Assembly (NCBI RefSeq): GCF_034262375.1
Contig: NZ_CP139558.1
Span: 1,922,001 to 1,986,000, forward strand
Source: Mucilaginibacter sabulilitoris
Lineage (GTDB): Bacteria > Bacteroidota > Bacteroidia > Sphingobacteriales > Sphingobacteriaceae
Reading direction: 5' to 3'
Length of the DNA stretch: 64,000 nucleotides
Below are positions 11,308-14,816 of this stretch, one piece after another; within the stretch, counting starts at the first letter, position 1; each line of letters begins with the position of its first letter. The position numbers were made by a program, and so were the translations under genes. A model generated the notes under the pieces. It saw nothing but the letters and a program-made list of their open reading frames with translations. It was not told the origin of the DNA and searched no databases.

Positions 11308-12738
11308 TTATAATTGTTTGTCACGAGGGGCTCCGTATTGCTTTCTAAAATACAGGTAAAAAGGTGCGCCGCTTAAAATAAGCAACAATCCAATCAATGA
11401 GGCCTTTGTCTGCGTAATTGCAGTATTGACGATAAGTGTAAGGCAAAATAATATGATAATGTACGGAACTACCGGATAGCCAATAACTTTTGAGGTGATA
11501 ACTTTTTTTCTTTTCATCTTAACCAGACCCCATGCAGTAAGCGCAAAAAAGGCGTAAGAGGCAAAAATAACAAGATCGGTAATTTGATCAAACGTGCCAC
11601 TGCACACCAATATGATGCTCCATATTGCAGTATAAAGCAGCGAAATATGCGGTGTGCGGAAGGTAGGATGCACCTGTGCTGCGCCTTTAAAAAAAACATT
11701 TTCCTGTGCCATGCGGAAGAACACCCGTGGATTGGAGATTATAGTACCGTTAAGCGCCCCAAAGGTTGATACCATGATCAATACTGCTATGATCACAGAT
11801 CCGGCTTTACCCATTAAAACACCCGCGACTTCTGCAGCTGCTATTTTATTTGTTCCCAGCGCAGCCAGCCGCGATACAGGTAGCACGTTCATATAGGCGT
11901 AGTTAAGCAGCACATATAAAGTCATGGCTATGCCTACGCCTCCAATAATAGCCAGCGGGATATTACGCTTCGGATTTTTGATTTCGCCGGTTACAAACGT
12001 AATGTTTATCCACCCATCATAAGCCCAAAGAGCGCTGAGCATAGCGCCAAATAAACCGCTAAATAAGGCTGTACCGCCTGGCGGCAGCGTTTGTATGGTG
12101 TTAACGTTACTGTCAGCAACCGGATGATTTGAATACAATAAGCTGGCTATAATTAACAGCAGGATACCCACTATTTTGGCGCTGGTAACAATGTTATTCA
12201 AAATGCCGGCCTTGTTTACCCCAATATAGTTTACCCAGGTTAACAGGATTATAGCAAGTACCGCCACTATTTTGACACCCGAATCGGCAAAGGGGAAAAC
12301 AGCGGTACCTATGCCGATATCCTTAAAGGCATATAAGGGTTCGTAAACAGGAAGCAGGGTATTAACCGATTGCGCAAATACAAAAGCCAGCGCGGCCACG
12401 GCTCCCGTGCCTACTATGGTAAAAGTAGTCCACCCGAATAAAAAGGCTATAAAATCACCATAGATCAATCGCAGATACTCGTAAACGCCACCAGTTTGGG
12501 TTGTCATGGTGGCCAGCCCAGCATAAGTAAATGCTCCAAGCATTGTAATAACACCCGCAATAATCCACGCCAGCAGAATGTACGTTTCATTATGCAGCGT
12601 TTGCGCCATGGGGACAACCTTTTTAAATACTCCCGAACCTATCATAATACCGGCCACCAATAAAATTGCGGTAGGCAAGCCAAGTACCTGCTTTAAATTC
12701 GGGGACCCTGTTTTTTTATCGGATAGGTTTTCTGTCAT
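11308..12738 (-). CDS. APC-family amino acid permease
   Basis: Inner-membrane amino acid transporter of the APC superfamily, with about 12 hydrophobic helices. The first helix has the family motif GIMIGSGVF, and later segments include GWINITFVTGEIKNPKRNIPLA, the conserved consensus amphipathic region after helix 5-6. The start chosen is the ATG at 12738, giving 476 residues (MTENLSDKKTGS). An upstream ATG at 12810 would add 24 residues that read into the inverted repeat of an inserted element and are not family-like. Substrate is likely a neutral amino acid or an exchange pair, but this is only a family-level inference. It lies downstream of the olsF-like gene on the same strand, behind a terminator interrupted by a MITE-like element. 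Confidence 0.93.
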   Translation of the reverse strand: MTENLSDKKTGSPNLKQVLGLPTAILLVAGIMIGSGVFKKVVPMAQTLHNETYILLAWIIAGVITMLGAFTYAGLATMTTQTGGVYEYLRLIYGDFIAFLFGWTTFTIVGTGAVAALAFVFAQSVNTLLPVYEPLYAFKDIGIGTAVFPFADSGVKIVAVLAIILLTWVNYIGVNKAGILNNIVTSAKIVGILLLIIASLLYSNHPVADSNVNTIQTLPPGGTALFSGLFGAMLSALWAYDGWINITFVTGEIKNPKRNIPLAIIGGVGIAMTLYVLLNYAYMNVLPVSRLAALGTNKIAAAEVAGVLMGKAGSVIIAVLIMVSTFGALNGTIISNPRVFFRMAQENVFFKGAAQVHPTFRTPHISLLYTAIWSIILVCSGTFDQITDLVIFASYAFFALTAWGLVKMKRKKVITSKVIGYPVVPYIIILFCLTLIVNTAITQTKASLIGLLLILSGAPFYLYFRKQYGAPRDKQL

Positions 12739-12784
12739 GTTGCGGGAGAATATTGTTACCGCAATATATTCAATTTCAAGCAAA

Positions 12785-13017
12785 AAGCCCTGCTGGTTTA
12801 TGGAGGGCACTGAAAAAGTCCAATTAATATGTGAGGTAAAAAGGAGGGCTTAAAAAAATCAATTTGATACGTTGAGAATCGTTTATACGACTCGGCGATG
12901 AGACTTGTAGGCCTATAAGACAAGGAAAAGGGGGTGTTCGTGCTTATTGAACAACCCCTTCATTTTTGCCGGATTTTCCGGGACTTTTTCAGTGCCCTCG
13001 GTTTATGAGCAGGGCTT
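12785..13017 (-). terminator. Ancestral terminator split by a MITE-like insertion
   Basis: Removing the insertion and one copy of its 8-bp duplication restores a perfect hairpin. The 10-base arms are 12785-12794 (AAGCCCTGCT) and 13008-13017 (AGCAGGGCTT), around the loop GGTTTATG. Read on the minus strand the stem runs into TTTTT, so it would have ended transcription of the olsF-like gene before the permease. Confidence 0.7.
12803..12999. mobile_element. MITE-like element, 197 bp, 19-bp perfect TIRs and 8-bp TSD
   Basis: The ends 12803-12821 and 12981-12999 are perfect 19-bp inverted repeats (GAGGGCACTGAAAAAGTCC at the left). The element is bordered by the identical octamer GGTTTATG at 12795-12802 and 13000-13007, an 8-bp target duplication. 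It has no transposase gene, so it is non-autonomous. Inside lies a hairpin (12928-12938 with 12949-12960). Read on the minus strand this is followed by TTTTCC, so it may replace the terminator the insertion disrupted. An 8-bp duplication is compatible with several IS families; I cannot name the parent. Confidence 0.8.
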
Positions 13018-13061
13018 TCGCTTAAATGGATGTGGCACACGTTGTGTGTGGCGGGCCATTA

Positions 13062-14816
13062 TTAAAGATTCTTGCCTAATTTTTCTAAAATATCCTGGGG
13101 AACTTTTTCAAGATCGAGCACCAGGAAACCATCCAGGCAATCGGCAAACTTAGGGTCGATGTTAAAGCTGATGATCTTGGCATTTAGCGCAATGTATTGG
13201 CGCAGCAGTACCGGAACTTTCATGTTACGGGTCTCTACTTCCGATATCAAGTTGTCCAACCCCTTAAAGGTATCTTCGCCGGCCATCAGCAGGTCGGTAT
13301 CTATCTTGGCAAAATCAACCTTGAATTTTTTACGCGGTTTTACATACTGCGCCATTTCGTGGTCAAAATGATTGCGGTTAATGTAATCAACAATAAGCGA
13401 TTTGGAGAACTTAGAGAACGAATTACTAATACTCACCGGCCCGATGAGATACCTGTACCTCGGGTTATCAATCAGAAACTTTAAAATACCTTTCCATAGC
13501 AAGAATAGCGGCAGGGGTTTGGTCTGGTATTCTTTACGTATCCAGGAACGGCCAAGTTCAAGGCTGCGGCGTAGCACCGGGGTAAACTGGCTTTTAAGCT
13601 TAAACAGTTCAGTAATGTAGAAGCCATTTTTACCTACACTGTAAAAAATTTCATCGCCAAGGCCAATTCTGTAAGCGCCTACTATCATTTTAGCTTCAAA
13701 ATCCCAGATAAACAGGTGATGATAATAAATATCATACTCATCCAGATCAATAGCCTTATTAGTTCCCTCGCCAACCTCTCTGAAGGTTACCTCGCGCAGG
13801 CGACCAATTTCGCGTATCACATTGGGTATGGCAGATGTGGGCACTATGAATACTTCATAGTTCTTCTCTGTCCAAATTTTATAATTGTCACGAAGCGGGG
13901 CTATTTCCTTGTCCAATACGTCGGCACTAATTTCGGTAGCAACATTTTCCGGCAGCCGTTTTATCTTAAACAGGTTACGCGGACTAAACAATTTCTTTTC
14001 TTCCTCCAGCCCGGTGCCAAGCGCATAAGTACGGGCTCGTAAAAAATTGAGCAGTTTGGCGCTGTTGTTATGATCGGGGATATCCTCTACATTAATAGGC
14101 TTGCCAATACGAAGCTTAATGGTGTGCCCGTGCTTGTTAAACAATTCAGACGGTAGTTTAGCCGTGCGTAAGGCAGGGTGTATGAGGCTCAGTAAATTAA
14201 ACAACAGGCCATTGTTGCCATGAAAATAAATAGGTACAACTGGCACCTTGGCCTTGGCTATTATTTTGCCTACCACAGGGTGCCAAAGGCGATCGGTTAC
14301 CTGTTTTTGTTCAACCTTAAAGGTTGATACTTCACCGGCAGGGAAAATACCTATTGGCGTGCCGTTGTTTAAAAGCTCCAGCGTGTTTTTTAAACCGCTG
14401 ATGCTTGATGAATGTTCAACGTTTTCAAATGGGTTTACGGCTATAAAGTAATCACTCAGATTGGGGATCTTTTTGAGCAGGAAGTTGGCCATCAGCTTGG
14501 CATCGGGCCTCACCATACACAGTATTTTTAACAGCACCATGCCCTCAATACCACCATAAGGGTGGTTGGCAATGGCAACAAAGCTACCGGTTTTAGGTAT
14601 GTTTCTTAATTCGCGCTCGTCAAACTCAATATCAATACCGCAGCCTTCTAAAATAGCATCAACAAACTCGGGGCCCTGTTTTGGCTGTGCCTGGGCAAAA
14701 AGTTCGTTAACCTGGTTTATTTTCATTAGTTCCATCAATAAAGCGGCCAGGCCCGGCATCTTCAACTTATCCAGTTTGGTGGCTTTGGCAAACTCTTCGG
14801 TGGTTATTACTTTCAT
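13062..14816 (-). CDS. olsF: OlsF-like bifunctional acyltransferase (ornithine/aminolipid synthesis)
   Basis: The 584-residue protein joins two acyltransferase domains. The N-terminal half (about 70-270) is a lysophospholipid acyltransferase (PlsC-like) with FVAIANHPYGGIEG (His85) and the later FPAGEVS motif (158-164). The C-terminal half (about 325-500) resembles the GNAT/hemolysin N-acyltransferases, with REVTFREVGEGTN and LGRSWIRKEYQ. This order is that of OlsF, known from Serratia and Flavobacterium, which makes ornithine lipids by N-acylation (C-terminal domain) and O-acylation (N-terminal domain). The H(X)nD box carries Glu91 in place of the usual Asp. It acts at the cytoplasmic membrane face. 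The gene is monocistronic on the minus strand, with a terminator region downstream. A related amino-acid lipid such as a glycine lipid is an alternative product. Confidence 0.82.
   Translation of the reverse strand: MKVITTEEFAKATKLDKLKMPGLAALLMELMKINQVNELFAQAQPKQGPEFVDAILEGCGIDIEFDERELRNIPKTGSFVAIANHPYGGIEGMVLLKILCMVRPDAKLMANFLLKKIPNLSDYFIAVNPFENVEHSSSISGLKNTLELLNNGTPIGIFPAGEVSTFKVEQKQVTDRLWHPVVGKIIAKAKVPVVPIYFHGNNGLLFNLLSLIHPALRTAKLPSELFNKHGHTIKLRIGKPINVEDIPDHNNSAKLLNFLRARTYALGTGLEEEKKLFSPRNLFKIKRLPENVATEISADVLDKEIAPLRDNYKIWTEKNYEVFIVPTSAIPNVIREIGRLREVTFREVGEGTNKAIDLDEYDIYYHHLFIWDFEAKMIVGAYRIGLGDEIFYSVGKNGFYITELFKLKSQFTPVLRRSLELGRSWIRKEYQTKPLPLFLLWKGILKFLIDNPRYRYLIGPVSISNSFSKFSKSLIVDYINRNHFDHEMAQYVKPRKKFKVDFAKIDTDLLMAGEDTFKGLDNLISEVETRNMKVPVLLRQYIALNAKIISFNIDPKFADCLDGFLVLDLEKVPQDILEKLGKNL

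Follow-up and report, generated by a model that had tools for sequence, protein, structure and literature searches.

The 197-bp MITE described here lies in the window, by which we mean the whole 64,000-nucleotide stretch of Mucilaginibacter sabulilitoris DNA that was analysed. It is very probably a non-autonomous IS derivative, moved in trans by the IS1182-family DDE transposase of same-ended IS copies of 1.72–1.74 kb, and inserted by loop targeting into terminator dyads. IS and MITE have their ends, the length of their target duplication and their target in common. Insertion takes place preferentially at the dyad of an inverted repeat that resembles an intrinsic terminator, mostly behind a gene, and it duplicates 8–9 bp centred on the loop. 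A sequence-only reading of the same DNA had already placed a MITE-like element in the loop of a terminator hairpin; that finding was right, and it has turned out to be wider than stated.

The features of the window locus are collected in Table 1. The perfect 19-bp inverted ends and the identical flanking octamers claimed in the sequence-only reading are both present. Chance can be ruled out for the ends, as their pattern, with up to three mismatches allowed, was expected 0.08 times in the window and was found twice. When the element and one octamer are taken out, the minus strand (a 79-nt stretch) folds into a hairpin of -28.6 kcal/mol, in which the octamer CATAAACC forms an 8-nt loop and TTTTT closes the second arm. 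The loop and the run of T had thus been read correctly, save that the stem measures 11 bp and not 10 bp. The host site consists of a stem-loop followed by a T-tract behind the end of a gene, as intrinsic terminators do, and is a predicted terminator. In the list of open reading frames there is also a 500-aa ORF on the minus strand (11308–12810) whose start falls inside the MITE because GTG was allowed as a start; a more probable start is the in-frame ATG near 12738 (MTENLSD), which lies outside the element.

Table 1. The MITE and its surroundings in the window (positions are counted from the first letter of the window).
Feature	Position	Strand	Evidence
MITE, 197 bp	12803–12999	minus, by consensus orientation (internal hairpin near left end)	8 genome copies, 99–100% identical, both orientations in alignment
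Terminal inverted repeat, one end	12803–12821	plus	perfect 19-bp inverted match to 12981–12999
Terminal inverted repeat, other end	12981–12999	minus	perfect 19-bp inverted match to 12803–12821
Target-site duplication GGTTTATG, copy 1 (original hairpin loop)	12795–12802	no strand	single and loop-located in the empty site of relative G077
Target-site duplication GGTTTATG, copy 2	13000–13007	no strand	identical octamer
Predicted host terminator, stem arm AAAGCCCTGCT	12784–12794	no strand	11-bp perfect complement of 13008–13018; minus-strand end is a T run
Predicted host terminator, other stem arm AGCAGGGCTTT	13008–13018	no strand	pairs over 11 bp with 12784–12794
MITE-borne terminator-like hairpin	12928–12960	minus	faces the transcript of the upstream gene; followed by TTCC
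584-aa ORF whose transcript would enter the broken terminator	13062–14816	minus	ORF list; 3' end and adjoining terminator found in G077

In search of an empty site, the window region was used as a query against 100 genomes of the genus; one of them, G077, matches both flanks (identities of 76% and 85%), 50 nt apart. Between the same genes it reads aaaaagccctgcc GGTTTATG cggcagggcttttt. Its hairpin is intact: a 56-nt stretch folds with -31 kcal/mol into a stem of 18 pairs whose 7-nt loop takes up seven of the eight GGTTTATG bases, the eighth being paired. This arrangement, seen in one relative only, is what the site should look like before insertion, and it identifies the GGTTTATG repeat as a target duplication. 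In a second genome, G065 (L233), both flanks lie near each other with about 350 nt between them and the GGTTTATG hairpin is absent; in G046 (L243), where the flank compared was the one with the same gene end, a similar hairpin with GGTTTAT lies beside that gene end.

The genome (7,552,305 bases, one contig) holds eight copies of the 197-bp body with 99–100% identity. Eighteen bases of the end, with at most two mismatches, match at 50 places, 25 per strand, and a backwards control matches at none. These matches resolve to 8 MITEs, 16 full IS copies and two lone ends, at 7119788 and 5086867 (L054, L056). One might also imagine that the 233-bp arrangement in the window is a fixed nested RNA structure, either a regulatory leader or a double terminator, that does not move. 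The whole stretch indeed folds far better than its shuffles (z -8.8), but the eight copies at unrelated places, the target duplications and the empty site in G077 refute such a reading, and its probability is close to nil.

The 16 full IS copies, which answer to the full IS that the sequence-only reading had proposed to look for, are 1718–1736 bp long and agree with the MITE ends within one mismatch in 18. They are 80–100% identical and fall into three sub-groups; three of them (L039–L041) are identical to three decimals, which suggests that the IS group has moved recently in this genome. The transposase of copy L047 matches the IS1182 model NF033551 (E 5e-109; score 365 bits, cut-off 270) and contains the Pfam domains DUF772 and DDE_Tnp_1_6. 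The window element is short (197 bp), carries no transposase gene and has its ends in common with an autonomous IS of the same genome, which is what defines a MITE, and the duplication is mostly of 8–9 bp in MITE and IS alike. The match between the two is confined to 17–24 bp at the ends, so the MITE is not an IS that has simply suffered a deletion. As its interior is unlike the IS beyond those ends, we infer, rather than observe, that the IS1182-family transposase mobilises it in trans.

The close transposase is distributed patchily: at E 1e-60 it occurs in 12 of the 149 genomes searched from the genus, and at E 1e-40 in 4 of the 395 from the class, our own genome included in both counts. MITE-like matches at E 0.001 occurred in 15 of the 149 genomes of the genus, again with our own, several of these matches being an end alone. 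Two loci show more complicated arrangements. In L095 (1334–3227) the ends are nested, a full IS being enclosed by another pair of these ends at a distance of 87 bp on each side, which resembles an IS sitting in an internally deleted copy. In the right flank of L165, another IS end, GAGGGTACTGAAAAAGTC, starts directly after the 8-bp duplication, and two copies apparently stand side by side at a single site.

To describe the targets, we called a site hairpin-centred when a dyad score of at least 7 was reached within 3 nt of the target centre. All 24 sites of our own genome were read with their flanks joined. Relatives were added from the genus, family and class, as well as the best 80 loci of named genomes (574 stretches matched, of which 506 encode a relative). 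Dropped from the relatives were L083, which repeats the place of L068, L095, whose nested ends do not delimit a single element, and L100 and L101 (transposase with stops, neither duplication nor dyad); from the 80 loci, we removed 11 without an end pair at up to five mismatches each, and L219, which has no left flank. The removal of five doubly represented places reduced the list from 119 to 114 distinct sites. Of these, 26 have no exact duplication, and 8 bp was assumed for scoring where none was visible. A looser count of RNA pairs across the centre was left unused because it did not discriminate, all 92 sites passing it.

In our own genome, 22 of the 24 copies are hairpin-centred (8/8 MITEs and 14/16 IS copies), so that the check proposed in the sequence-only reading, whether other copies also sit in terminator loops, came out in its favour. 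Exact duplications of 8, 9 or 11 bp accompany 20 of the 24, and two more have a duplication with one mismatch. Among all distinct sites, 79 of 114 are hairpin-centred, and an exact duplication of 7–11 bp is present in 88 (8 bp in 59, 9 bp in 26, and 7, 10 and 11 bp in one each). The dyad and the duplication coincide closely: 68 of these 88 sites are hairpin-centred, with an offset of 0 in 42 of the 68 and of at most 1 nt in 64. The same score was reached within 3 nt at 1.1% of 2,600 flank positions, and within 1 nt at 0.34% of 20,000 random window positions; when halves taken from different sites were joined in 500 shuffles, the mean was 10% and the maximum 20.5%. Duplication and hairpin occur together at sites in records titled Mucilaginibacter, Sphingobacterium, Pedobacter, Flavobacterium, Chryseobacterium, Pontibacter, Algibacter and Galbibacter, and in a Bacteroidales MAG.

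The hairpin is strongly preferred as a target, but it is no absolute requirement, because 20 of the 88 exact-duplication sites score under 7 and exceptions come from several sources. Two IS copies of our own genome, L042 and L055, have a clean duplication and no good hairpin. In the Flavobacterium MAG NK2020 (L161–L168, L170, L202, L205, L225), all 12 sites have an exact duplication of 8–9 bp and 4 of the 12 are hairpin-centred, as are 5 of 12 diverged MITEs of other species. Only 6 of 21 weak-hairpin sites (on the list before doubles were removed) have a folding energy among the lowest 5% of the controls. Perhaps target choice is relaxed in NK2020. A- and T-tracts are present at many of the NK2020 sites. 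In the Tenacibaculum copy L198, neither duplication nor hairpin was found.

The sequence-only reading had spoken of hairpin loops as the target. The centring on the loop bears this out; the target, however, is more than a loop, because A- and T-tracts lie at a near-fixed distance from the centre, often at weak-hairpin sites too. Over 92 sites (before doubles were removed), A makes up 88–96% at -16 to -13 and T makes up 87–95% at +12 to +15; beyond these tracts, no sequence is common to the sites. At the 68 hairpin sites, the inner edge of the T-tract, located in 62 of them, is on average 11.6 nt from the centre (sd 1.4), and that of the A-tract, located in 64, is 12.2 nt from it (sd 2.4). The corresponding spread in 216 genomic dyads is sd 5.3 for T and 6.2 for A, a set that includes non-terminator dyads, so the ruler may look sharper than it really is.

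Such regularity raises the question of whether the duplex geometry alone is read, with an A-tract about 12 nt to the left and a T-tract about 12 nt to the right of an 8-bp cut, and terminators simply happen to fit. The narrow placing of the T-tract edges relative to genomic dyads speaks for this, and so do the weak-hairpin sites, which keep the tracts at the same distance (within 9.5–14 nt, the A-tract in 17/20 of them and in 57/68 hairpin sites, the T-tract in 14/20 and 59/68, respectively). On the other hand, where both tracts stand at the right distance, hairpins are found in 57 of 67 insertion sites (list before doubles were removed) versus 2 of 131 places in the window, and the joined halves of different sites keep their tracts while their hairpins fall to 10%. 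A/T geometry as the sole cue is ruled out by the former comparison, and we consider the duplex reading as a whole unlikely. That the inverted repeat and the tracts both count is the most economical reading.

Gene context was assessed on the cleaned list, at the 89 sites that have 900 bp of flank or more: convergent ORFs enclose 38 of them, ORFs of the same direction 46 and divergent ORFs 4, and one site is open on one side. In 85 of the 89, the element is faced by a gene end, at a median distance of 42 nt and within 100 nt in 72. By itself, this count says little, because a gene end also faces 14 of the 17 window gaps longer than 60 nt (5 of 17 are convergent). It could be argued from these numbers that insertion is random and that only copies behind genes survive selection. 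Selection, however, cannot account for 64 of the 68 hairpin sites having dyad and duplication within 1 nt of each other, when about 1% of nearby random positions reach the score within 3 nt. As the sole cause, selection is refuted by this centring, and the reading is very improbable, though selection may add to the pattern.

The resemblance of the sites to working terminators, mostly behind genes, also allows for a coupling to transcription, in which the transposase would meet a paused RNA polymerase or an RNA hairpin and not a DNA structure. No clear orientation bias was seen where the neighbours run in one direction (21 same versus 17 opposite, on the list before doubles were removed), which is weak evidence against it; we regard this coupling as improbable, somewhat more so than the duplex reading.

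Returning to loop targeting at the DNA level, insertion might proceed as follows. The transposase would recognise the inverted repeat together with the A- and T-tracts about 12 nt from its centre, either as an extruded cruciform or as a duplex. Each 3' end of the element would be joined by it to one of the two target strands, at points some 8 nt apart that are placed symmetrically around the loop, and repair of the gaps would then duplicate the loop. The host terminator would be broken, because its arms come to lie 213 nt apart, and hairpins carried by the element would take over termination. These hairpins would also shield the transposase gene from outside transcription.

The hairpins in question are a regular feature of the IS. 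After removal of identical left ends, 64 distinct ones were left, all ends being mutually related. An inward-facing terminator-like hairpin precedes the transposase gene at 64 of 64 left ends, versus 38 of 300 random window pieces, and is found at 58 of 64 right ends versus 55 of 300, the random pieces being unmatched in composition. Hairpins in the outward direction occur at 33/64 right ends and 49/64 left ends. When 24 diverse left ends were aligned, 6 of the 8 predicted pairs proved to be kept in one or more sequences in which both partners had changed. After the T-tract of the left hairpin, most rows of alignment A3 (columns 93–99) read GTATnTT, possibly part of the transposase promoter.

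In the MITE, a hairpin lies near the left end in all eight copies of our own genome; it has one stem mismatch in the window copy and none in the other seven. Its folding energy is -15.7 kcal/mol in the window (38 nt) and -19.6 kcal/mol in copy L060 (40 nt). Diverged MITEs of other species gave any hairpin match in 6 of 12 and one at a similar place in 3 (L067, L072, L084), with fewer T required than for the IS and no control. The sequence-only reading had noticed this hairpin on the minus strand of the element and suggested that it may have replaced the stop that the insertion broke. The inward-facing hairpins of the parent IS make such a replacement more likely. The window hairpin faces the transcript of the 584-aa ORF and would probably stop it.

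Hairpin targeting in the IS1182 family is already known. IS1272 and TnSha1/TnSha2 of staphylococci belong to this family and have hairpin targets without a common sequence (PMC4923244, PMC5678879), and both papers refer to a review on the point that some members of the IS1182 family target palindromes. RNA-seq confirmed 5 of 7 TnSha1 targets as transcription terminators (PMC4923244), and some targets in the work on IS1272 are not inverted repeats (PMC5678879). The window group is thus like IS1272 and TnSha1 in transposase family and in hairpin targets. Unlike these elements, which delete or replace part or all of the hairpin and make no target duplication (PMC4923244, PMC5678879), it keeps both arms and duplicates 8–9 bp at the loop: 88 of 114 sites have an exact duplication, both arms are kept in the window, and G077 has an empty site. 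Duplication of the loop only was drawn as a possible pathway (pathway c of Figure 13 in PMC5678879), for which the sections of that paper considered here give no example.

Within the IS1182 family, 4-bp duplications are tabled for two copies of ISCaa15 of Amoebophilus (PMC3196728); in the parts of PMC3196728 and PMC5395568 covered here, neither hairpins nor terminators are mentioned as targets. The phylum has further IS1182 lineages, one of them in our own genome (L262–L264), which match the same family model, NF033551, and differ in their ends, often of the GGCTGTC type. No 8-bp duplication was seen at 30 loci of these lineages, inverted ends being found in 18 of the 30 only; one of the 18, L135, showed a 7-bp repeat. 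The ends of L262, L264, L271 and L272 are terminator-like, with an A-tract and a GC-rich stem. In some copies among L262–L264 and L271–L272, the ends resemble a terminator stem that has A- and T-tracts; by analogy with IS1272, this would fit a mode in which the hairpin is replaced.

Class C group II introns, which are retroelements, also insert beside intrinsic terminators, behind genes; they are unlike the window group in that they are not DDE transposons and are not known to make a loop duplication. Some IS elements have REP palindromes as their targets (PMC1525189), and these are extragenic palindromes, as are the targets of the window group. REPs form a family of repeats, whereas the sites of the window group have no common sequence beyond the A- and T-tracts. 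No loop-duplicating IS1182 element is named in the titles and abstract openings of the matches listed. As far as the literature searched shows, what is new is the loop-duplicating mode together with the A/T ruler, the element-borne hairpins and the MITE partner.

Overall, it is tempting to picture an IS1182 branch, scattered in Bacteroidota, that reads intrinsic terminators as DNA objects by their inverted repeat and the near-fixed A/T ruler, inserts with two-fold symmetry (perhaps through both loops of an extruded cruciform), duplicates the loop only and exchanges one terminator for another by passing termination to its own hairpins, gene ends serving as a safe harbour. This broader picture is tentative, and we would put its chances a little below even. 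The sites described here, backed by controls and by an empty site, show in nature a loop-duplicating outcome that the authors of the IS1272 work had only drawn as a possible pathway, and the sensing of a DNA hairpin by a DDE transposase becomes directly testable. The findings also suggest a natural route for placing DNA behind genes at little harm, and they may explain some of the short intergenic repeats in Bacteroidota.
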